The notes beneath the pieces were generated by a model. That model made no database searches, was not told where the DNA came from, and worked only from the letters and a program-made list of their open reading frames with translations. A stretch of 49,212 bases of DNA from Nitrospirota bacterium (GTDB taxonomy: Bacteria; Nitrospirota; Thermodesulfovibrionia; Thermodesulfovibrionales; Magnetobacteriaceae), in NCBI GenBank assembly GCA_015233895.1, contig JADFXG010000021.1, positions 1 to 49,212 on the forward strand, given 5' to 3'. The position numbers and the translations under genes are program-made. The stretch's first letter is position 1. Each line of letters starts with the position of its first letter. Below are positions 12,640 through 48,548 of the stretch, one piece after another.

Positions 12640-13964
12640 TTATAAAACTCCTTTTTTAACACCAAATCAGCTATCCTTTCCATTCCTGCAAACTCTATAT
12701 CATCCGGCACCTTTTGGCCTGTCGTGATATAGGCTATCGGCTTTTGATACGTTAACGCCATATTATACACTGAGCCATAGCGTACTGCCTCATCCACCTT
12801 CGTGTAGCCGAGGTAATTTATCGGCAGCCTTCTGTAGTAACGGTACGCCTCAGTCATAAACTCATCGTCACTGTTGGCACTCATTAGCAGATGCACCTCT
12901 ATGGGTAAATCCGAAAGACATATCTCTGCCATGTCATCCATGTACGCCTCATCCATCGGGCTCCTTCCTGTCGTATCTATGTATATTATGTCCTTTGTGT
13001 CTGCAAATCTCAAGAGCGTGTTTTTTAACTCTGCCGGGGTTGAGGCCACAGCAAGGGGTATTCCCATTATACGGGCATAAATCCGCACCTGCTCCACTGC
13101 GCCTATCCGGTATGTGTCAAGATTAATTATGGCTGTTCTTTTACCCTCACGTATTGAATTTGCCGCAAGTTTGGCTATCGTTGTAGTCTTACCCACACCG
13201 GTTGGCCCTATCAGCATTATTGCCTTTCTGTCTGTGTGCTTGTCCTTTATTTTTATGTTAGACATAAGCAAAGAGGGCAGGTCCTGGACGTCATTTGCCT
13301 TTTCACATAAAAGCACAGCATACTCCTCACGTATTGCCCTGTCTTTCAGATAATAGAGGAGCATTCTTTTTTTGGGCGGCAGGGACATTTCAAACCCAAG
13401 GTTTTTCATATCCTCTATGCTGTCTCTTAAATACTCAATCTCGCTTTGTACCTTAACTGTCATTTTATTAAGAAAATGCTCTAACTCTCTTCGTGTAAAA
13501 GCCGGTTCGGTTATGTGGTTTACTGGCTCAGGATTGGTTTCAACAGGTTTATGCACTGCCGGTTTAATATCAGCAACCAGCGTCTTTTCTGCCCTCTCAA
13601 CAACTGGCGTTGCCTTATTAACAGCACTCTCTGCCACATCAGGAACTGCCTCATGCCTCAGCTGAGCCTTACCCTTTGCGCCTTTTTTGTCATCCTTAGA
13701 GGCTTTTGCAGAATGTGAGGTGCTTTCTTTGCTAAAACTCCGTATTTTTTCCAAAATATTAAGGTCATTTTTGAGTCTTACTGCCCGTGTGTCATAGGTT
13801 CCGGCTTTAGGCGAATCATAGTCAACTGCGGCAGTTACCTCCACGCAGGGGTTTGCCCCCTTAAGCTCCTCTGTTGACAGAATTATAGCATCCTCACTTA
13901 ATTCCTTCTTGACCATAGAAAGAGCCTCAGCAAAGGTCCTTGCCTGAAACTTTTTAATCTTCAT
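12633..13964 (-). CDS. flhF: Flagellar SRP-like GTPase FlhF
   Basis: 443 aa. The N-terminal B region begins MKIKKFQARTFAEALSMVKKELSEDAIILST, a typical FlhF opening. A basic, low-complexity linker spans about 85-150. The NG domain (about 240-440) has LIGPTGVGKTTTIAKLA (G1), NLDTYRIGAVEQV (G2 region), IYIDTTGRSP (G3) and YTKVDEA (G4-like). FlhF places the flagellum at the pole and recruits the early export apparatus. It overlaps flhA at its start by 11 bp and flhG at its end by 7 bp. The FlhF-FlhG pair predicts a set polar flagellation. Confidence 0.95.
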   Translation of the reverse strand: MKIKKFQARTFAEALSMVKKELSEDAIILSTEELKGANPCVEVTAAVDYDSPKAGTYDTRAVRLKNDLNILEKIRSFSKESTSHSAKASKDDKKGAKGKAQLRHEAVPDVAESAVNKATPVVERAEKTLVADIKPAVHKPVETNPEPVNHITEPAFTRRELEHFLNKMTVKVQSEIEYLRDSIEDMKNLGFEMSLPPKKRMLLYYLKDRAIREEYAVLLCEKANDVQDLPSLLMSNIKIKDKHTDRKAIMLIGPTGVGKTTTIAKLAANSIREGKRTAIINLDTYRIGAVEQVRIYARIMGIPLAVASTPAELKNTLLRFADTKDIIYIDTTGRSPMDEAYMDDMAEICLSDLPIEVHLLMSANSDDEFMTEAYRYYRRLPINYLGYTKVDEAVRYGSVYNMALTYQKPIAYITTGQKVPDDIEFAGMERIADLVLKKEFYKC

Positions 13965-15987
13965 ATCTGATCACTCCTAATGTATAAAGCCTTGCCGAGG
14001 AAATCTCAGCATTAGAAAGAACCACTACGGCAGGTACAAACTTCTCAAGCAGACGTTTTAAAAACCTTCGTATATGAGATGAACACAGGATTATCGGCTG
14101 AACTCCCCTTAAATTATCCTTGTCCATCAGTTTTTCCACTCCTTTAACAAGCCTGTTTATAATGTCAGGGTTAATTGACTCACCCGTTTGCACACTCCTG
14201 CCGATTGAGGACTCAAAGCGCGGATCTAAGGTAAAGACCGGCACAGAGCCGTCCTGCATGGCATACTGCTTGCTAATGTGTCTGCCAAGGGCCTGTCGTA
14301 CGTACTCGGCCAGCATATCAGGGTCTTTTACGTTTGGAGCATAATCCAGTATTGTCTCAAGCACGGTCACTATGTCATTAATCGGCACACGCTCCCTGAG
14401 AAGATTCTGCAGCACTCTCTGAATGCCTCCTAGGGTCATAAGGGCTGGAACCAGCTCCTCCACTATCTTTGGATACGTACGTGTTACGTTGTCAAGCATG
14501 TTCTGTACTTCAGTTCTGGAGAGGAGCTCCCAACAGTGTTTTCTTATTAATTCTGTCAAATGAGTGGCAATAACAGTCGGTGTATCCACTACCATATAGC
14601 CAAGAACCTGTGCGTTTTCTATGTTAACCTCTTCTATCCAGTAAGCAGGAAGGCCAAAGGCCGGCTCTTTAGACGGTATGCCGTCTATTCGCTCCACATC
14701 GTCTGAGGCTACTGCCAGCCAGTAGTTCATCATAACCTCGTTTCTTGCTGCCTCTATGCCCCTTATAATAAAGCTGTACTCATGGGGGCGCAACTGCAGG
14801 TTGTCGCGTATGTGGACTGGGGGAATAACAAATCCTATGTCTTTAGCAAGCTGCCGTCTCATTGCCTTTATCTTACCAAGAAGTTCACCGCGCTGCTCCT
14901 CAACTAAAGGTATCAGGCCATAGCCGATTTCAAGAGTGAGCGGATCTATTTCTATAAAAGTCTCAGGCTTGGCCTCCTCCTGAGGCACCACTGCTGTTTT
15001 TTCCGCAAGCTCCTCCTCCTTTGTCTTTAATGTCAAAAGGTAAGCAAGGCCTGAGGCCGCCGCGGCTATCAATAAAAACGGTACGTGGGGCAGGCCTGGG
15101 ATTATTGCAAAAACAAACAAAACACCGGAGGTTGTAAAAAGAGTCTTAGGATTTATAAATATCTGGCCTGTAATATCCTGGCCCATGTCGGATTCTTTAC
15201 CGGCACGGCTGACCACTATACCTGCCGCTGTGGATATTAACAGGGCCGGTATCTGAGTTACCATACCGTCTCCGATGGTCAGTATTGTATAAGTCTGAAG
15301 GGCGTCCACTATAGGCATGCTCTTTTGAATAACACCGATAAAAATTCCGCCTAAAATGTTTATACCGGTAATGATGAGGCCAGCTACGGCATCTCCTCGT
15401 ACAAACTTGCTGGCACCGTCCATAGCGCCGTAAAAGTCCGCCTCCTGCGCTATCAGTTCACGCCGCTTCTTAGCAGCTTTTTCGTCTATAAGGCCTGCGT
15501 TTAAATCAGCATCTATGGACATCTGTTTGCCAGGCATAGCGTCTAACGTAAAGCGTGCCGCAACCTCTGCAATTCTGCCGGAACCTTTAGTAATAACCAC
15601 AAAATTAACTATGACAAGAATCAGAAATATGATAAGTCCTACCGAGTAGTTGCCGCCTACCACAAAGTTTCCAAATGACATTATGACGGCTCCCGCTGCC
15701 TCTATTCCCTCGTTGCCCTTAACAAGCACAAGCCGTGTTGTTGCCACGTTTAAGGAAAGCCGAAAGAGAGTGGTCAAAAGCAGCAAGGTCGGAAATACCG
15801 AAAAATCAAGCGGCTTTTGTATATATATGCTGGTTATCAGTATCACTATAGCTATTGCGATTGATATGGAAAGCAGCATGTCAAGCAAAAAAGGAGGCAG
15901 TGGTATAAGCATTACCCCAAGAATGCTTACCACTGCTATTGAAACTATTATCTCCGCTCTTTCGCGTATGATTTTAAGCCAATCCAT
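13954..15987 (-). CDS. flhA: Flagellar export gate protein FlhA
   Basis: 677 aa, normal length. The N-terminal half has eight transmembrane helices and the FHIPEP-type cytoplasmic loop with RFTLDAMPGKQMSIDADLNAG, a segment conserved in all FlhA/InvA proteins and essential for proton-driven export. The C-terminal cytoplasmic domain (about 340-677) is the docking site for chaperone-substrate complexes. It includes FIIRGIEAARNEVM and YVRQALGRHISKQYA. It lies 9 bp after the flhB stop. It works with FlhB, FliP, FliQ and FliR in the basal-body export gate. Confidence 0.97.
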   Translation of the reverse strand: MDWLKIIRERAEIIVSIAVVSILGVMLIPLPPFLLDMLLSISIAIAIVILITSIYIQKPLDFSVFPTLLLLTTLFRLSLNVATTRLVLVKGNEGIEAAGAVIMSFGNFVVGGNYSVGLIIFLILVIVNFVVITKGSGRIAEVAARFTLDAMPGKQMSIDADLNAGLIDEKAAKKRRELIAQEADFYGAMDGASKFVRGDAVAGLIITGINILGGIFIGVIQKSMPIVDALQTYTILTIGDGMVTQIPALLISTAAGIVVSRAGKESDMGQDITGQIFINPKTLFTTSGVLFVFAIIPGLPHVPFLLIAAAASGLAYLLTLKTKEEELAEKTAVVPQEEAKPETFIEIDPLTLEIGYGLIPLVEEQRGELLGKIKAMRRQLAKDIGFVIPPVHIRDNLQLRPHEYSFIIRGIEAARNEVMMNYWLAVASDDVERIDGIPSKEPAFGLPAYWIEEVNIENAQVLGYMVVDTPTVIATHLTELIRKHCWELLSRTEVQNMLDNVTRTYPKIVEELVPALMTLGGIQRVLQNLLRERVPINDIVTVLETILDYAPNVKDPDMLAEYVRQALGRHISKQYAMQDGSVPVFTLDPRFESSIGRSVQTGESINPDIINRLVKGVEKLMDKDNLRGVQPIILCSSHIRRFLKRLLEKFVPAVVVLSNAEISSARLYTLGVIRYED

Positions 15988-15996
15988 GAGTGTTTC

Positions 15997-17031
15997 CTAA
16001 ATCTTTCCCTGAAGCTTATAGATGTATGCAAGGATTCTTGCAACAGCTTTATAAAGCTCCTGAGGAATATATGTGTCAATATCTAATTTAAACAAAAGCC
16101 GTGCCAGTGGCTTATCCTCAACAACAGGAACCTTGTGTTTTCGGGCAAGTTCTCTGATTTTCTCTGCTACAAACCCGGAGCCCTTTGCCACTATCTTAGG
16201 CGCTCCCAAATCCCCCTCCTTATACAGTATGGCAATGGCAAGGTGAGTCGGGTTTGTTATTACCACTGTTGCCTTTGGCACCTGAGCCATCATACGCCGT
16301 CTGGAAATTTCCCTCTGGATGCCCCTTATTTTTGACTTAACCTTAGGGTCTCCCTCAGTATCCTTGTGTTCCTCTTTGATTTCCTGTTTTGACATCTTTA
16401 TGGACTCTTCAAACCGGTATTTCTCTATTACAAAACTCACCAGGGCTATAATAAAAAGATACAAAAACCCATACCATATAGCCTCTTTCAGCAAATCATA
16501 AGCCGCATAGGTCATCTGATTGAAATCTTTCACCAACAGGTATGAAAACTTAACGATATCGGCCTTAATTACAAGATAAAATATTAGTATTCCACCAATA
16601 AACTTAAGCAGGTTTTTAAGAAAATCGAAAATACCGTTTATTGAAAAAAGCCTCTTAATTCCCTCAATTGGATTCATTCTGCCAAAGTTCAACTCCATAT
16701 CCTTAAGCATAAAACCAACCTGGCTAATCTCTGAGGTAACTGCAAGCACTATAACACCCAACAGGAACGGGAACAACAGCAGCAGTGTTTTTGCCATGGC
16801 AATCTTTATGGCAATAAAAGGGTCCGTTCCGTATGAAAGGGTCAGAAAGTTTACGGTTATCCCCTTAGCGCTGACGATAAAGTGCTTGCCGCCAAAGTAA
16901 AGCACAAGCATCATGCCGGCCATGCCTGCAACAGAGGTAAGCTCCTTAGATCGGGCAAATTGTCCCTTTTCACGTGCCTTTTGCCGCCGTCGCGGTGTAG
17001 CTCGTTCTGTTCTTTCCTGTCCTTCAGCCAT
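15997..17031 (-). CDS. flhB: Flagellar export switch protein FlhB
   Basis: 344 aa. The N-terminus EGQERTERATPRRRQKAREKGQ is the FlhB signature; four transmembrane helices follow to about residue 210. The cytoplasmic C-domain carries the self-cleavage motif NPTH (Asn near 260) in VVITNPTHLAIAILY. Cleavage between N and P switches export from rod/hook to filament substrates. It follows fliR by 15 bp and precedes flhA in the usual order. No unusual substitutions are seen. Confidence 0.97.
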   Translation of the reverse strand: MAEGQERTERATPRRRQKAREKGQFARSKELTSVAGMAGMMLVLYFGGKHFIVSAKGITVNFLTLSYGTDPFIAIKIAMAKTLLLLFPFLLGVIVLAVTSEISQVGFMLKDMELNFGRMNPIEGIKRLFSINGIFDFLKNLLKFIGGILIFYLVIKADIVKFSYLLVKDFNQMTYAAYDLLKEAIWYGFLYLFIIALVSFVIEKYRFEESIKMSKQEIKEEHKDTEGDPKVKSKIRGIQREISRRRMMAQVPKATVVITNPTHLAIAILYKEGDLGAPKIVAKGSGFVAEKIRELARKHKVPVVEDKPLARLLFKLDIDTYIPQELYKAVARILAYIYKLQGKI

Positions 17032-17046
17032 CTTTCCCTATGTTTC

Positions 17047-17829
17047 CTATTTTGTTGACAGTTCCATAGCGCGGTACATATCGTGCTTCATATTCGCTAT
17101 GTTTATACCAAATAAATATATCATGAGAGGTAAACAAGCTATCATGAGGGTCAATCCTACGAAAATAAATATTGGAAAACTGACAAAGAATATATTTATC
17201 TGTGGGGCTGCCTTATATAGAAGTCCAAGCAGCAGGTTTGCCGTAAGCATTCCGACCGTAATAGGGGCAGCAATCTTTATTGCCAAAACAAATAACTGGG
17301 AACCTCCCATAAAAGCGTCAATCATTGATCTGTTCAGCACAATTTTATCCGGAGGCAGGAACTCATAACTTTTTACAAACATCGTGATTAAATCATGGTG
17401 GGCATCCATAGAGAGAAACAGCAGGGTTAGAATAACGCCAAGAAGCCTGCTGACCTCAGCCGATTGGCCAAAGTCAGGATCAAAAGTGCTCGCAACGGAA
17501 AGAGACATACTGTTACTTATAAAAGTTCCGGCCATGTTAACGGCGGTAAAGACAAAGCGTGCCCAACTGGCAAACAACATGGAAAAAAGCAACTCTTTTC
17601 CCAAAAACAACGGAATACGCTCGTTTTCACTGAAGTGAACATTGACAATAGGCGTTAATAGCACAGCAATGGCAACGGCAAAGGCGATTTTAATCTGAGT
17701 TGGAATGTTTGTACTGCCGAATATTGGCATCATGGCAACAAATATGGACGTCCTGATGAGTATAAACAAAAAATTCCCTATCTGCTGAGTTGCCATCTGG
17801 GCATTTATAAACTGGTTTATCTCTTGCAC
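17047..17829 (-). CDS. fliR: Flagellar export protein FliR
   Basis: 260-aa integral membrane protein with about six hydrophobic segments. FIRT-type features are visible: LIRTSIFVAMMPIFGSTNIPTQIKIAFAVAI and SFPIFIFVGLTLMI are the well-conserved N- and C-terminal segments. FliR forms the export channel with FliP and FliQ in the inner-membrane basal body. fliQ ends 3 bp upstream of its start, so the two are translationally linked. Family length is matched. Confidence 0.95.
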   Translation of the reverse strand: MQEINQFINAQMATQQIGNFLFILIRTSIFVAMMPIFGSTNIPTQIKIAFAVAIAVLLTPIVNVHFSENERIPLFLGKELLFSMLFASWARFVFTAVNMAGTFISNSMSLSVASTFDPDFGQSAEVSRLLGVILTLLFLSMDAHHDLITMFVKSYEFLPPDKIVLNRSMIDAFMGGSQLFVLAIKIAAPITVGMLTANLLLGLLYKAAPQINIFFVSFPIFIFVGLTLMIACLPLMIYLFGINIANMKHDMYRAMELSTK

Positions 17830-17831
17830 TT

Positions 17832-18101
17832 TTACCTGACATACATGGGCATTCTTTCAATTAAATGAGTCGTAAAAGTAATCATAATCTTTGCAAACCA
17901 AGGCAGTAAAATAAAAATACATAAGAATACGGCTACCACCTTAGGCACAAAGGTAAGTGTAAACTCCTGCAGTTGTGTTATTGCCTGAAAAAAGCTGACA
18001 AGCAAACCCACTATCATGCTGACTAAAAGTATCGGCGATGCCAATGTCAGCAGAGTTTTAAACACTTCCCCTGATATATCTTTAACGGCTTCAATTGTCA
18101 T
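17832..18101 (-). CDS. fliQ: Flagellar export protein FliQ
   Basis: 89 aa, the standard FliQ length, with two long transmembrane helices (LLTLASPILLVSMIVGLLVSF and VVAVFLCIFILLPWF). The start is set at ATG 18101 because AAGGAG lies 6 nt upstream and family members begin MT-EAV. A longer frame back to 18140 would add 13 residues from within fliP. It overlaps the 3' end of fliP by 4 bp (ATGA-type junction). Confidence 0.94.
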   Translation of the reverse strand: MTIEAVKDISGEVFKTLLTLASPILLVSMIVGLLVSFFQAITQLQEFTLTFVPKVVAVFLCIFILLPWFAKIMITFTTHLIERMPMYVR

Positions 18102-18736
18102 TGGAAACTCCTTACGACAGTGCCTATAATAAGATTCCACCCGTCAACCAAAACAAACAAAAGAAGTTTAAACGGCAGAGAAATCGTAACCGGAGGCAGC
18201 ATCATCATACCCATTGAAAGCATAACGCTTGCCACTACCATGTCAATAATGATAAAGGGAAGGTAGAGTAAAAAGCCCATCTCAAAAGCTGTCTTAAGCT
18301 CACTTATCACAAAGGCAGGAGCAACCACTTTAAAGGGCACATCCTTTGGCTCATAAGGCTGGGGGGACTTAGAGAGTTGAATAAACAGGGCTATGTCTTT
18401 TTTCCGGGTCTGTTTCAGCATAAAGGACTTGACTGGTTCTTCACCGCGCTTAACCGCCTCAGTCAGTGTAATTTGCTTGTCCATATATGGGGTTATAGAA
18501 TCCTTGGCAAGTTTATCAAAAGTAGGGGCCATTACAAAAAACGTAATGAAAATGGAAAGCCCGACTACTACCGCATTAGGCGGTATCTGGGCTCCGCCGA
18601 TAGCCTGCCGCAGAAAAGACAGAATAATCACTGTGCGTGTGAAAGATGTCAACATTATCAGCATTGCAGGTATGAGCGACAGAAAACTCATTAGTAAAAA
18701 CATAGAAACAAGCGGGTGGTCAATATTAAAATTCAT
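18098..18736 (-). CDS. fliP: Flagellar export protein FliP, short N-terminus
   Basis: 212 aa. It has the FliP core: MLTSFTRTVIILSFLRQAIG, QIPPNAVVVGLSIF, KKDIALFIQLSK, and FVISELKTAFEMGFLLYLPFIIIDM, followed by MGMMMLPPVTISLPFKLLLFV. Many FliP proteins are about 245 aa and begin with a cleavable signal peptide; that leader is missing here, and the protein starts directly at the first conserved helix region. The fliO stop is only 6 bp upstream, so no longer start is available. FliP forms the central export channel with FliQ and FliR. Confidence 0.95.
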   Translation of the reverse strand: MNFNIDHPLVSMFLLMSFLSLIPAMLIMLTSFTRTVIILSFLRQAIGGAQIPPNAVVVGLSIFITFFVMAPTFDKLAKDSITPYMDKQITLTEAVKRGEEPVKSFMLKQTRKKDIALFIQLSKSPQPYEPKDVPFKVVAPAFVISELKTAFEMGFLLYLPFIIIDMVVASVMLSMGMMMLPPVTISLPFKLLLFVLVDGWNLIIGTVVRSFQ

Positions 18737-18742
18737 CCCTTG

Positions 18743-19069
18743 TTACCTCCCTGTACCGGCTGATGCAGTGTCCTGGACTTGCAGACTCTTGACCTCGGTA
18801 TCTAACCTGCCCTTAAAATCCAGTACATCCGGTGATGATTCTTTAATTGTCATAAGAAGCCGAATATCGTTTTGCGTTACTGATATAATTAACAGATCGG
18901 CCCCTGCCTTAACCATAGCTATTCCCCTTTTTGGACCAAGCGGCAGGTACTCTTTCATAGCAAGAAAGCCACCCTGTTTGCCCCGTTTCTTCATATAATA
19001 TGACATACCGTATATGATTAAAATCACTGCAAGAAGCGCAAAAACCATCTGTATAACAGCAGCAGTCAT
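18743..19069 (-). CDS. fliO: Flagellar assembly protein FliO
   Basis: 108-aa bitopic protein with one N-terminal helix (VIQMVFALLAVILIIYGMSYY) and a small cytoplasmic domain, KEYLPLGPKRGIAMVKAGADLLIISVT, matching the FliO/FliZ pattern of an LGPKR beta-barrel segment. FliO helps assemble the FliP ring. The name rests on this pattern plus position between fliN and fliP. Its start overlaps the fliN stop by 4 bp. Confidence 0.88.
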   Translation of the reverse strand: MTAAVIQMVFALLAVILIIYGMSYYMKKRGKQGGFLAMKEYLPLGPKRGIAMVKAGADLLIISVTQNDIRLLMTIKESSPDVLDFKGRLDTEVKSLQVQDTASAGTGR

Positions 19070-42087: not shown

Positions 42088-42270
42088 TAAAGTAAAGCAT
42101 ATTAATTTTACTATTTTTACGGTAAATATTGCTACAAGTACGGGTAAAAAAAATTTTAAAAGATATTGTCCGCTTTTATCAGATTTTTCATAAATATAAT
42201 TTAAAAAAGTAAATAATTATGCAGTTATACAAATTAATGTAAATACATTTGATGTTACGGAAGGAGAACA

Positions 42271-45200
42271 GTGGCTTACTTTTTCACAAATGCGATAGAT
42301 ATAACCCCTTCAAGCGGGAGCTGGGTAACAATTGATTTATCACCGTATCTGCCACAGGATGCTACAGTGGCAGTGTTGAGAGTGCATGAGGGCAGTTACG
42401 GTGAGCATGTAAATTATGGGTTAAGAACCTATGGATCAAGCAACGATAACTATGCAGTCGGCTATATTAATGGTTATAGCCAGTGCGATTTTTATGTAAA
42501 GGTATCAACAGCTCTGAAAATTGAGGCGAAAATCCAGACAACATATTGTAAGATAAAACTGACAGGCTATTTTACCTCAGATGCTGCAGGATTTACCGAA
42601 CCATATCAAATTGCTGCTGATTTAACAAGCTCATGGACAACTTATAACCTGAGCAGCTATATCCCAATTAGCGCAAAATTCGCTCTTTTAGAAATAACTT
42701 GTACTGATAGTGTTTGGAATAATACCGGTATCAGGCCATTTGGCAGCACTGATACAAGGGTGGCTCCTCAGTATGGGGCAAGCCATTTCGGGTTCTGTGT
42801 GCCAATAGATGGTAACAGAAAATTTGAAGCTATAAAAAATGGCGGCACAACTAAGATATATCTGCACGGGTATGTCACTGCAGGCAGATCCTTTGTTAAC
42901 GGAATCAATAAGAGTGTCACCAATACGGATAATTATCAGACAATTACACTTACTCCGCCGTGGGGCGCCTCCGGTGTGCTTATAGAGTCATGGACACACA
43001 CAAGCGGACATGACGGTTTTGTTGCGTTAAGAAAAGGTTCCACTGATGACATTTATAAAAACAGCAGTTTTTGTACTCATGCCATAGGTATTGATTTTGC
43101 TGCAAAAACAATTGAGGGCAAAAGACAGAATACCTATATGGACTTCTACGTGATGGGTTACTTTTGTAAACCATATAAAAACATAGACTTAATGCCTCGC
43201 AACTGGGTTGGAGAGTTTAATAATCAGGTGTCGGGTTCTTTTTCTGATGGTGATGAGGTTTTAATTGATATAAGGCAACCTTCTGGCGATAACGGCTATT
43301 ATAATTTGCCGTCCCCAATTGCCGATATGGGTACACTGAGTTTATTAAACTTATTAAACACCGAAATTGCGGCAAATTATATGGCTACAATTCTGTCTGA
43401 CATGGCTGAGTTTTATGAGGCAAACGGCTTAGGGGATTCTGTCAACGAGTTTTTTGAAAGCGTCATAAGCAGTGAGTATCTTAACAGCATAAATTCTCAC
43501 GGCAGCGACTTAAAGATACTGTTTATTAAGCAACCGTTTCTTTTAGAGCGAATTCTGCATTTTTCACTGGATATAGCAACCGGGTTTTGGAATAGTCTAT
43601 ACATTGGAAACAAGATAGTGGATTCCGGCATAGAGACTATGTTTTCAGTTAGCAGTGGGCTTGGTAATTCAAAAGACGTTAATTTCCCGCTAACAATTTC
43701 AGAAGGTTTTCGCAAATACCTGGCCCTGCTAAATGGGATAACTGATCCGGTTAACTCTCTGGCTGTACTTACAAGCACCATTGAAGAGCATATACACATC
43801 CCATATTTTTTCAGAAATTCTTTAAGGCCGGTTCTTACAACGAGAGTATCTCCTGCATGGGATATAACAATCGAGGGGTCATCAATTAAAAAATACGTAA
43901 AGAAAATAAATCTCACCAAACAAGAATCAGAGGCAATTGACCATATTGAGATAGAGCTGGCTGGTTTAAAACTCTGGGATGTTTGCAATCCTGTAACAAA
44001 CTATGGTGAATTATGTATAAAACTAACATTATCAAATCCGCCTGGGGTCGCTGACCCCTACGAGTTTTACCTTGAAACCAGAGAAAAGAAGGAATCAGCT
44101 GTGTCAAACCCGGCAGCCCGTGGCGGCAGCGCCAATATTAATATCTGGGGACGTCAAAAACCGGCAATATTAGCAAAGGGATTTGCCTCAAAACTATCAG
44201 ACACTTACTACAATAAATATGCTTCAGAAATAGCCGCAGAGATAGCCGGAAGTTCCTTAGCGGGGTATGGGGTATCTATCCCCATAACCTGGGATTGTGA
44301 TGACTATTGGATAAGTGAATTCAGCACTGAAGATTACCCGATAAACGCTCTTATAAAGCTGGCTGAGGCCGCAGGTGCCATAGTCAGAACCAACTCTGAC
44401 GGCTCATTAACCGTCAGAAGCAAGTTTCCTGTTAAGCCTGAGGAACTGTCAAACGAAACGGCTGTGTACTCTTTTGACTTTACCAACATAATATCAATGG
44501 ACTATACCGAGGAACAGCCGGAGTTTAGCTCTGTCACGGTTAATATTAATAATGGCAGCAGCTCTGAGGATTACTCCATTGAGGCAGTGGACGGCACATG
44601 TGCAAAGCCCGGTGAAACTCTTCAGATAAAAGTGTATATCCCTAATAAAAGTGCAAGTTATAAATTAAAAGTTGCCGGAGATGCCAAAATCTCTAAAGTT
44701 GGTACCTACTCTGAGACATTGGATGAAACGGTTACAATAACTAACGGCTCAGGCTCTGTCAGCAAGGCAATCTACAGCGTTACCTCTTACACACTCCACA
44801 CTTGTGATGGATCAGGGAAAACGATAGATTACACGGCAGGCTCTAAAACCATTACTATCTGCCGGGGGTCGCTGACCCCTTTGGATGACACGTGCTCATT
44901 ATTAGATATCTGCTATGAGACAAAATATGATTTATGGGATGTGACGTCAACAGTTAGTGGGACTGTTGCGTTATTTGTAGTGAAAGACACCGGGAGCAGT
45001 GCGGCATCTGCTGTTACAGTAGTCGTAGGGGGGGTAGCGGCGCCAGACAATAAAGGCGCTGATAATATAAACAATGCTCTTATCATCACTGAAACTCAGG
45101 CAGTTACAGTTGGGCAAATCTACCTGTATGATAATTCCTACAGGCGCAGAAAATATACACTGGACGTGCCCTACTGCGGCGCACAGGATGGCAGCGTGGC

Positions 45201-45354
45201 ATCGGTAAATGACGATGAAAGCGGCACGTACATGAAGGGAATAGTAAGAGAGGCATCAGTGGAAATTTCATTAAGCAGCAAAGACAAATCACCAAAGTTT
45301 AAGGAAACCATCGTGGTGTATGGATATGACAATTATAAAAACCCGGTAAAATAG
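42271..45354 (+). CDS. Large beta-repeat protein with phage tail-hub-like segment
   Basis: 1027 aa, not recognised as a whole. The first 300 residues are three repeats of about 100 aa, each opening with W/Y-x-T-I/Y-x-L-(S/T)-x-(Y/P)-x-P-x-(S)A and followed by G-x-R-x-(F/Y)GS(T/S). From about 530 to 740 it resembles phage tail-hub/baseplate proteins: IEIELAGLKLWD, ISIPITWDCDDYW-like and INALIKLAEAAGAIVRTNSDGSLTVRSKF. The last 280 residues have Ig-like strands. There is no signal peptide or membrane helix. The start is GTG 42271 with AAGGAG 6 nt upstream. Codons are AT-rich, as in the 180-bp AT-rich leader. No other tail genes flank it. Confidence 0.75.
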   Translation: MAYFFTNAIDITPSSGSWVTIDLSPYLPQDATVAVLRVHEGSYGEHVNYGLRTYGSSNDNYAVGYINGYSQCDFYVKVSTALKIEAKIQTTYCKIKLTGYFTSDAAGFTEPYQIAADLTSSWTTYNLSSYIPISAKFALLEITCTDSVWNNTGIRPFGSTDTRVAPQYGASHFGFCVPIDGNRKFEAIKNGGTTKIYLHGYVTAGRSFVNGINKSVTNTDNYQTITLTPPWGASGVLIESWTHTSGHDGFVALRKGSTDDIYKNSSFCTHAIGIDFAAKTIEGKRQNTYMDFYVMGYFCKPYKNIDLMPRNWVGEFNNQVSGSFSDGDEVLIDIRQPSGDNGYYNLPSPIADMGTLSLLNLLNTEIAANYMATILSDMAEFYEANGLGDSVNEFFESVISSEYLNSINSHGSDLKILFIKQPFLLERILHFSLDIATGFWNSLYIGNKIVDSGIETMFSVSSGLGNSKDVNFPLTISEGFRKYLALLNGITDPVNSLAVLTSTIEEHIHIPYFFRNSLRPVLTTRVSPAWDITIEGSSIKKYVKKINLTKQESEAIDHIEIELAGLKLWDVCNPVTNYGELCIKLTLSNPPGVADPYEFYLETREKKESAVSNPAARGGSANINIWGRQKPAILAKGFASKLSDTYYNKYASEIAAEIAGSSLAGYGVSIPITWDCDDYWISEFSTEDYPINALIKLAEAAGAIVRTNSDGSLTVRSKFPVKPEELSNETAVYSFDFTNIISMDYTEEQPEFSSVTVNINNGSSSEDYSIEAVDGTCAKPGETLQIKVYIPNKSASYKLKVAGDAKISKVGTYSETLDETVTITNGSGSVSKAIYSVTSYTLHTCDGSGKTIDYTAGSKTITICRGSLTPLDDTCSLLDICYETKYDLWDVTSTVSGTVALFVVKDTGSSAASAVTVVVGGVAAPDNKGADNINNALIITETQAVTVGQIYLYDNSYRRRKYTLDVPYCGAQDGSVASVNDDESGTYMKGIVREASVEISLSSKDKSPKFKETIVVYGYDNYKNPVK
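44044..44058. repeat. GGGGTC-GCT-GACCCC palindrome, copy 1
   Basis: A perfect 6-bp dyad with 3-nt centre inside the large gene. Its identical twin is at 44865-44879, 821 bp on. Here it encodes G-V-A-D-P. Confidence 0.7.
44865..44879. repeat. GGGGTC-GCT-GACCCC palindrome, copy 2
   Basis: Identical to copy 1, and the same T follows, but read in a different frame (G-S-L-T-P). Conservation of DNA and not of peptide points to a mobile or structural DNA motif. Confidence 0.7.
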
Positions 45355-45365
45355 AAGGAGGAACA

Positions 45366-45902
45366 GTGAACAGCTCATCAAATGTAAAAGCCACTAAAAC
45401 GGTAACATTTAAAAGCAGTTGTACCAGTACCGGTGAAAGCATTATAGTGAAAGCGGATGGTGACTTAAATGTGGACAGTAGCGGCAATAGTAAGTCATCA
45501 TTTGCATTTGGCGACAAGTATTATTTCCGGGTGTTTAAGACCTCCGGCATATCAGGCTATACAATCAGTAAGTCAGACGGTATTATTACGCCTTATGGCA
45601 CAGGAAAGACTGTAACCATAACAGAATCAATTAAATTTGAAAAAAGCGATACGGCAAAAACATCATGCCCGATTACCTCAGTTAATTCAATCACCTGGCA
45701 GGGGACAGACCTTGGCACAATTAAAAAGAGTGGTTCGAGGGAGGTTACCTCAGAAGTATCAGGTGTGGCAGTAGGGCAGTTGTGCTATGAAAGCAGCTAC
45801 GATTCATACTACATTACCGTGCAACAACCCTCAAACTACGACACGGAACAGGATGCCGGGTACGAGGTGCTGATATGTGTTGATGAGATGTCTAAAGCCT
45901 AA
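45366..45902 (+). CDS. Companion beta-rich protein of the tail-hub-like gene
   Basis: 178 aa, GTG start, with AAGGAGGAACA directly before it, nearly the same ribosome-site context as the 1027-aa gene 11 bp upstream. The part VNSITWQGTDLGTIKKSGSR and VGQLCYESSYDSYYITVQQP resembles VTSYTLHTCDGSGKTIDY and LDICYETKYDLWDV in the large protein, so the two share a small beta domain. It has no signal peptide. Its stop codon TAA (45900-45902) lies inside a repeat relic (45898-45928), so the present C-terminus may be shortened by that insertion. Function unknown. Confidence 0.7.
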   Translation: MNSSSNVKATKTVTFKSSCTSTGESIIVKADGDLNVDSSGNSKSSFAFGDKYYFRVFKTSGISGYTISKSDGIITPYGTGKTVTITESIKFEKSDTAKTSCPITSVNSITWQGTDLGTIKKSGSREVTSEVSGVAVGQLCYESSYDSYYITVQQPSNYDTEQDAGYEVLICVDEMSKA

Positions 45903-46067: not shown

Positions 46068-46475
46068 ATGCCGTTGATATCATGGAATGACACCCTTAGT
46101 GTGCATATTTGGGAGTTTGACGAACATCACAAGAAAATAATAAATCTCCTCAACGGCTTATATGACGCCATATCGGCCAAAAAGGGCAGCACCATAGTCG
46201 AACCGGTAATAGTGGAGTTGATAGACTATACGAGATACCATTTTGCTGCCGAGGAGAAGCTTATGAACAAGTATTCATTTCCGGGGGTCTCCGGACATGA
46301 ACACGAGCACAAAGAGCTGATTGCGAAAGTAGTTGATTTTCAAGAACAATTCAGAGCTGGAAAGGCTAAGATAGACTTTTCGCTGTTGAACTTCTTAAAG
46401 ACATGGCTGACTAAACATATCATGGGAACTGATAAAAAATATTCGTCATTTCTAAAAGAAAAAGGCATAAGATAA
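46068..46475 (+). CDS. Bacteriohemerythrin 1
   Basis: 135-aa single-domain hemerythrin. All likely diiron ligands are present: His21 in FDEHHKKI, His58 and Glu62 in HFAAEE, His77 and His81 in HEHEH, and His117 with Asp122 in WLTKHIMGTD. Such proteins bind O2 and act as oxygen stores or sensors in microaerophilic and motile bacteria. It is monocistronic and converges with the HD-GYP gene. Start ATG 46068 follows AAGGGGG. Confidence 0.93.
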   Translation: MPLISWNDTLSVHIWEFDEHHKKIINLLNGLYDAISAKKGSTIVEPVIVELIDYTRYHFAAEEKLMNKYSFPGVSGHEHEHKELIAKVVDFQEQFRAGKAKIDFSLLNFLKTWLTKHIMGTDKKYSSFLKEKGIR

Positions 46476-48119: not shown

Positions 48120-48548
48120 ATGAATATTGAGTGGACAGATGATTTAATAATTGGTGTTGATATTATTGACGAACAACATAAAGAATTCTTTAGACGTATA
48201 AATTTACTATTTCAGTCTATAGAAACTAACGATTTAAAAGAGATAGCCAGGACATTTTTATTTGTCAGGCAGTATGTCAATATTCACTTTAAAACCGAAG
48301 AGGATTTTATAAAGAACAATATTAACTATGAATATGGGATTACAAATTATATAGAACATAAAAATGATCACGATGCATTCATAAGAGATTTTACAGAGTT
48401 TGAAAAAATAAAGATAAAAAATAAACGTGAAATATTAAAAATAGCAAAAGAGTTTTATCCCTGGATGCGGAACTGGCTGTCTCAGCACATTACTTGTATA
48501 GATAAAAAGATGGGTATTATCTATAATAAATCTATGGAAAAGAAATAA
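48120..48548 (+). CDS. Bacteriohemerythrin 2
   Basis: 142 aa. IDEQHKEFF (His20), HFKTEE (His56, Glu60), EHKNDH (His80, His84) and WLSQHITCID (His123, Asp128) give the full diiron ligand set. It is clearly divergent from the first hemerythrin in this window. Start ATG 48120 follows AAGGGAA-type GAAGGG about 3-8 nt upstream. The region before it (47839-48119) is AT-rich with no clear gene or terminator. It is read divergently from the HD-GYP gene. Confidence 0.92.
   Translation: MNIEWTDDLIIGVDIIDEQHKEFFRRINLLFQSIETNDLKEIARTFLFVRQYVNIHFKTEEDFIKNNINYEYGITNYIEHKNDHDAFIRDFTEFEKIKIKNKREILKIAKEFYPWMRNWLSQHITCIDKKMGIIYNKSMEKK

Follow-up and report, generated by a model that had tools for sequence, protein, structure and literature searches.

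Viriform gene transfer agents (GTAs) are built from proteins derived from tailed phages and able to form a tailed-phage-like particle; their genes are endogenized, often at multiple loci, and show vertical inheritance and co-diversification with the host, and the particle, whose own genome cannot be fully packaged, carries mostly random host DNA and delivers it to cells (PMC9662315). GTAs typically include loci of one or two genes, their small terminase is without a detectable DNA-binding domain, and verified examples come from a handful of lineages, namely alphaproteobacteria, Brachyspira, Desulfovibrio and Methanococcus (PMC11841831). New cases resemble scattered remnants of phages, which makes them hard to find, and the literature we searched included no GTA from Nitrospirota. 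RcGTA of Rhodobacter capsulatus, like other GTAs, comprises phage-derived terminase, portal, protease, capsid, connectors, tail tube and hub, and spreads about 20 kb over five loci (PMC9662315, PMC11841831). The gene set described here, one part of which lies in the window (the whole 49,212-nt stretch of DNA that was analysed), has the same components, amounts to about 23 kb at five loci, and shares with GTAs both vertical inheritance and purifying selection (PMC9662315, PMC11841831). It differs from RcGTA in the Mu-type ancestry of its head, in belonging to another phylum, in its putative production and transfer, and in a structural core split into five operons joined by an upstream box, in which tape measure, gpF and gpG are not recognisable.

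Three phage groups offer further comparisons. With phage Mu the set shares the portal, protease I, gpT capsid, gp36 and gp37 families and a hub core akin to gp44, whereas its tail is of the siphophage type (phrog_807), no Mu transposase was recognised at its loci, and gpF and gpG were not found. In Vibrio siphophages of the SIO-2 group, a homologue of the second gene of the window's cassette comes right after a hub-like gene of 428-447 aa, a few genes past the tape measure, but identity is about 20-30% and the genes are contiguous in phage genomes of 80-87 kb. An apparently complete prophage in a sister genus (G011 C101, L027/L063) combines a Mu-type head with a siphophage-type tail, running from terminase through protease, connectors, tube and tip genes; its terminase, portal and capsid are 64-68%, 58-60% and 55% identical to the dispersed genes, yet it is contiguous and carries gpF-like, gpG-like and tape measure genes. 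On the sequence evidence we propose, with moderate confidence, that five dispersed operons encode a domesticated phage-like particle, passed down vertically and most likely a viriform GTA of this Nitrospirota genus, and that the cassette in the window is one of them.

The cassette, whose first and second genes we call P1 and P2, has the following features, all on the forward strand of the window:

42175..42192, +: candidate regulatory box TTTATCAGATTTTTCATA, lying 96 nt upstream of the GTG that starts P1; the box also precedes operons B, C and E (below)
42212..42217, +: AATAAT, a possible -10-like element that follows the box
42262..42267, +: ribosome-binding site AGGAGA of P1, read in the sequence
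42271..45354, +: P1, 1027-aa tail hub protein, GTG start, intact open reading frame; three N-terminal beta repeats (residues ~1-305), a linker, a gp44/gp27-like hub core (~540-790) and C-terminal beta domains
45356..45362, +: ribosome-binding site AAGGAGG(A) of P2, read in the sequence
45366..45902, +: P2, 178-aa tail-tip protein, GTG start, homologous to P1 residues 775-894

Both genes have strong ribosome-binding sites (GAAGGAGAACA-GTG for P1, GAAGGAGGAACA-GTG for P2), the chance of such open runs at the local base composition is P ~3e-28 for P1 and ~2e-5 for P2, and intact relatives occur elsewhere in the genus; these open frames are not random. Among the P1 repeats, the second is clearly related to the first (z=13) and the third to the first (z=7), while the second and third hardly align (z=2.3). 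Residues 44-154 of P2 match residues 775-894 of P1 in profile-profile comparison (hhalign probability 96.5%, E=9e-10), so that the C-terminal beta domain ascribed to both proteins by the initial annotation is indeed shared, though in P1 it does not form the extreme end. No signal peptide is visible by eye at the P1 N-terminus (MAYFFTNAIDITPSS), again as had been claimed. That first description of the window genes, as a GTG-started pair with matching ribosome-binding sites and three beta repeats in P1, was right, since the reading frames, ribosome-binding sites, repeats and P1-P2 homology bear it out. On one side the cassette adjoins a sugar-transferase/AMP-ligase/dehydrogenase/GNVR-AAA locus, and on the other hemerythrin and HD-domain genes; in the latter neighborhood, the genes at 46068-46475 (a hemerythrin) and 48120-48548 of the window are related to each other (25% identical) and have the HD-domain gene between them. 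A tRNA-Ser(GGA) gene lies near the cassette, and tRNA-targeted integration was set aside because P1-P2 are on its 5' side.

Singly, P1 and P2 found nothing useful in Pfam and PDB searches, but against PHROG P1 alone matched a tail protein (E=0.004) and P2 alone phrog_24905, a family of unknown function (E=4e-10). Once relatives were aligned, the best solved-structure match of the hub profile was the Mu baseplate hub gp44 (1wru, E=0.005), a weak but specific hit in which the hub core aligns with gp44 residues 55-131. Structure predictions for the hub core and P2, made from two-sequence alignments, gave pLDDT values of 31 and 29, too low for the models to be of use. Scans of viral contigs returned no relative, and by tblastn 27 Vibrio siphophages carry a P2 homologue. 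In the sister genus the corresponding genes stand in a contiguous tail module with the order tape measure, 125 aa, 111 aa, 466 aa, hub, 75 aa, P2, 265 aa, 527 aa and 727 aa. Both the gp44 match and this tail-module position agree with the initial suggestion of a tail-hub-like cassette, and the best assignment from sequence and gene order would make P1 the hub and P2 its tip partner. Residues 1-350 of the window's P1 are 84% identical to their counterpart in G003, 53% in G002 and 24% in G001, where the N-terminus is instead a LamG lectin domain resembling the LamG domain of an 848-aa protein encoded in operon E (42% over 216 aa). Judged from these alignments, the N-terminus is the exchangeable part of P1.

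The initial annotation had regarded the cassette as an orphan, with no other tail or capsid genes. While the latter statement is uncontradicted inside the window, it is false for the genome as a whole (G000), where tail and head genes lie elsewhere; the cassette is no orphan, as the remaining particle genes occupy four further loci of G000 and its relatives have tail-module neighbors. The five operons are:

Operon A, window 42271-45902, +: the P1-P2 cassette
Operon B, G000 C16: genes for 125-, 201- and 464-aa proteins
Operon C, G000 C5: genes for 267-, 523- and 667-aa proteins
Operon D, G000 C36: genes for 94-, 114- and 164-aa proteins and the 564-aa terminase large subunit (TerL)
Operon E, G000 C39: portal, protease, 136-aa protein, capsid, gp36, gp37, 125-aa protein, 848-aa LamG protein, two small open reading frames and major tail protein

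In the closed 3.27-Mb chromosome of G001 the set occupies six places, near 0.09, 0.35, 1.23, 1.85, 2.47 and 2.99 Mb; the particle would likely be unable to package its own genome fully, because the loci are scattered over megabases. The phage homology of the head, packaging, tube and tip proteins is plain: operon E encodes Mu-type head families (Pfam: gpT 3e-119, Portal_Mu 2e-90, protease I 9e-84, gp36 1.5e-33 and gp37 7e-8) and a tail tube protein of phrog_807, a major tail protein with Ig-like domain (E=4e-45), and TerL belongs to phrog_38 (E=5e-115). The 164-aa protein preceding TerL matches phrog_4151 'DNA binding protein' (E=4e-5) and, weakly, terminase small subunit families, with no Pfam domain. 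Between the connector and tube genes of the head operon, the 848-aa protein (L099:9873-12419) has an apparent signal peptide, tail-fibre-like repeats and LamG. A tape measure is required by a normal siphophage tail. Tape measure, gpF and gpG genes were sought in G000 and not found, a tape measure candidate in contig C27 proving to be a TPR protein; lysis genes were likewise not identified. In G001 a two-ORF IS-like element (97 + 275 aa, copies 100% identical) is frequent (L095:5830-6965 and 13708-14843; L096:2450-3585; L094:269-1404; L147). Two copies bracket operon E, which may be impaired in this genome because one of them parts the upstream box from the operon and the other truncates the 848-aa gene.

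The conservation of these genes was followed across the four genomes of the genus (G000, G001, G002 and G003). In a survey of the family, all seven core genes are single-copy and intact in each of the four (operon C of G003, located outside the survey, is counted in it); elsewhere in the family they occur partly in the sister genus and are absent from five other genera, and P2 is restricted to the genus and its sister among 395 genomes of the phylum. The dN/dS values are 0.03-0.08 for TerL, 0.05-0.10 for the capsid, 0.04-0.11 for the 464-aa protein and 0.28-0.31 for the hub, compared with 0.11-0.13 for one host gene, a few saturated comparisons yielding no estimate; the device genes with such estimates are under purifying selection. 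These values bear on the alternative that survives best, namely a domesticated particle or tail-tip assembly that does not move host DNA between cells and has another role, for example as a decoy, a protein carrier, or an adhesin or lectin complex at the surface. The failure to find gpF, gpG and a tape measure, without which no normal tail would be built, favors this alternative, as do the LamG domain at the P1 N-terminus in G001 and the LamG protein with its apparent signal peptide in the E operon. Against it, terminase and portal have no role outside DNA packaging in known systems, and with dN/dS of 0.03-0.10 they belong to the more strongly constrained part of the set; we regard a particle without DNA transfer as unlikely, if still worth serious attention.

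The box TTTATCAGWTTTWWCAYA stands upstream of operons A, B, C and E, leaving D as the only one of the five without it. The best common 18-mer has 7 summed mismatches in G000 and 4 in G002; neither 160 shuffles nor 160 sets of real upstream regions drawn at random gave fewer than 13. Exact copies number 5, 4, 5 and 4 in the four genus genomes, and 16 of the 18 are at device operons (4 of 5 in G000), counting the G001 copy now parted from operon E by the IS-like element; 13 other genomes of the family have none. As the consensus was derived from the operon sites themselves, the independent tests are the null comparison, the rarity of the box in the genus and its absence from the 13 genomes. AATAAT or GATAAT hexamers follow the box at B and C at a distance similar to that in the window, and GATAAC follows it at E. 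These upstream sequences suggest that A, B, C and E are probably co-regulated.

The operons also keep their places. P1 and P2 adjoin the same sugar-transferase locus in all four genus genomes, and operons A, B, C and E each have conserved flanking genes, so that four of the five loci hold their position; the host neighbors of operon E are bamD-, moaC- and trpF-like genes, whereas the flanks of operon D are common to three genomes and different in G002. A head-gene cluster of the sister genus (G013 C68, L107:1281-9466 and 14509-18999) lies near two 565-568 aa host genes, which also adjoin operon E of G002 (L101:14153-19473); this shared neighborhood hints that operon E might have been at that site before the genera split. 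It is improbable, given such conservation, that the five operons are independent relics of several decayed prophages persisting by chance. Decayed fragments of related phages do exist near 2.58 Mb in G001 (L059:9325-10553) and in G002 C31 (L061:3900-10397), with fused connector/head pieces and partial tape measure genes, but the dispersed pieces are complementary, each surveyed gene is present once and undamaged in every one of the four genomes, most loci keep their position, and purifying selection and an upstream box are common to them. The conservation and the shared box largely refute a relic origin.

The set is inherited vertically and co-diversifies with its host in the four genomes: the four-taxon trees agree for 8 of 8 device genes and 7 of 7 host genes, and the G+C content of the device loci is host-like. 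An intact prophage was rejected, the genes forming five separate operons with conserved neighbors in four genomes. A living but unusual prophage or satellite, transmitted horizontally and re-acquired by each species, could draw on the complete related virion modules of the sister genus (terminase, portal, capsid and tape measure in G011 C101); we consider it very improbable against four loci in the same positions, a tree matching that of the host, host-like G+C and the lack of any recognised integrase or replication gene among the cassette genes. We give hardly any credence to a contractile injection system or tailocin, which the match of the hub profile to gp44, the hub of a contractile tail, might suggest, since the tube protein is a major tail protein with Ig-like domain (phrog_807), the modules read include no sheath, and conservation extends to portal, capsid and terminase, which such systems lack.

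The initial annotation had envisaged either a domesticated tail part or part of an injection device with its other genes elsewhere. Of these the former is supported; the particle is likely to be a DNA-packaging one of the GTA type rather than an injection device, because terminase, portal and capsid are present and no sheath is found in the loci read. We posit that the set works like a GTA and probably is one, and we keep to 'probably' because the several loci, the vertical inheritance and the phage ancestry are clear, while packaging and delivery of host DNA are what we infer from them. A common regulator acting at the TTTATCAG box would turn on A, B, C and E in some cells, with terminase operon D otherwise controlled. 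By homology, operon E would supply a Mu-type procapsid (portal, protease, capsid and connectors) and the major tail protein, and the terminase of operon D would package DNA, which, given how scattered the device genes are, would presumably be fragments of the host chromosome. Homology and gene order suggest that A, B and C would build a siphophage-type tail tip, with P1 as its central hub and P2 as the tip partner. The exchangeable N-terminal repeats or lectin of P1 might then bind the recipient surface, and the released particle would deliver its DNA to related cells.

We further lean, slightly, towards a Nitrospirota GTA of independent origin in a probably magnetotactic genus, with a Mu-type head, a siphophage-type tail, a core of five dispersed operons of which four are tied by the box into a small dedicated regulon, swappable recipient-binding domains on the hub, and no recognisable tape measure, gpF or gpG. 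If true, this would add a phylum to the GTA-bearing lineages and point to a candidate means by which uncultured and possibly magnetotactic bacteria exchange genes. The scatter was resolved here through synteny, selection, co-diversification and a shared regulatory box, a combination that offers a recipe for finding other GTAs.

Where a one-mismatch copy of the box fell within or next to an unrelated gene, as several did, it was put down to chance. Other one-mismatch copies precede three paralogous CHASE2-domain membrane proteins (~390 aa) in G000 (L140:3388 in C2, L141:4029 in C45 and L142:11906 in C7) and one in G001 (L146:3264), with a small open reading frame (MGKGDNYIQDPKTGKFNGS...) between box and CHASE2 gene in two cases; these genes may belong to the box regulon. 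The fifth exact copy in G000 (L139:283-300, C12) precedes an 81-aa gene that diverges after about 40 codons near the contig end, and in G002 C33 (L152:2540) a one-mismatch box stands before an 81-aa gene followed by a 188-aa aspartyl-protease/SEC-C gene.
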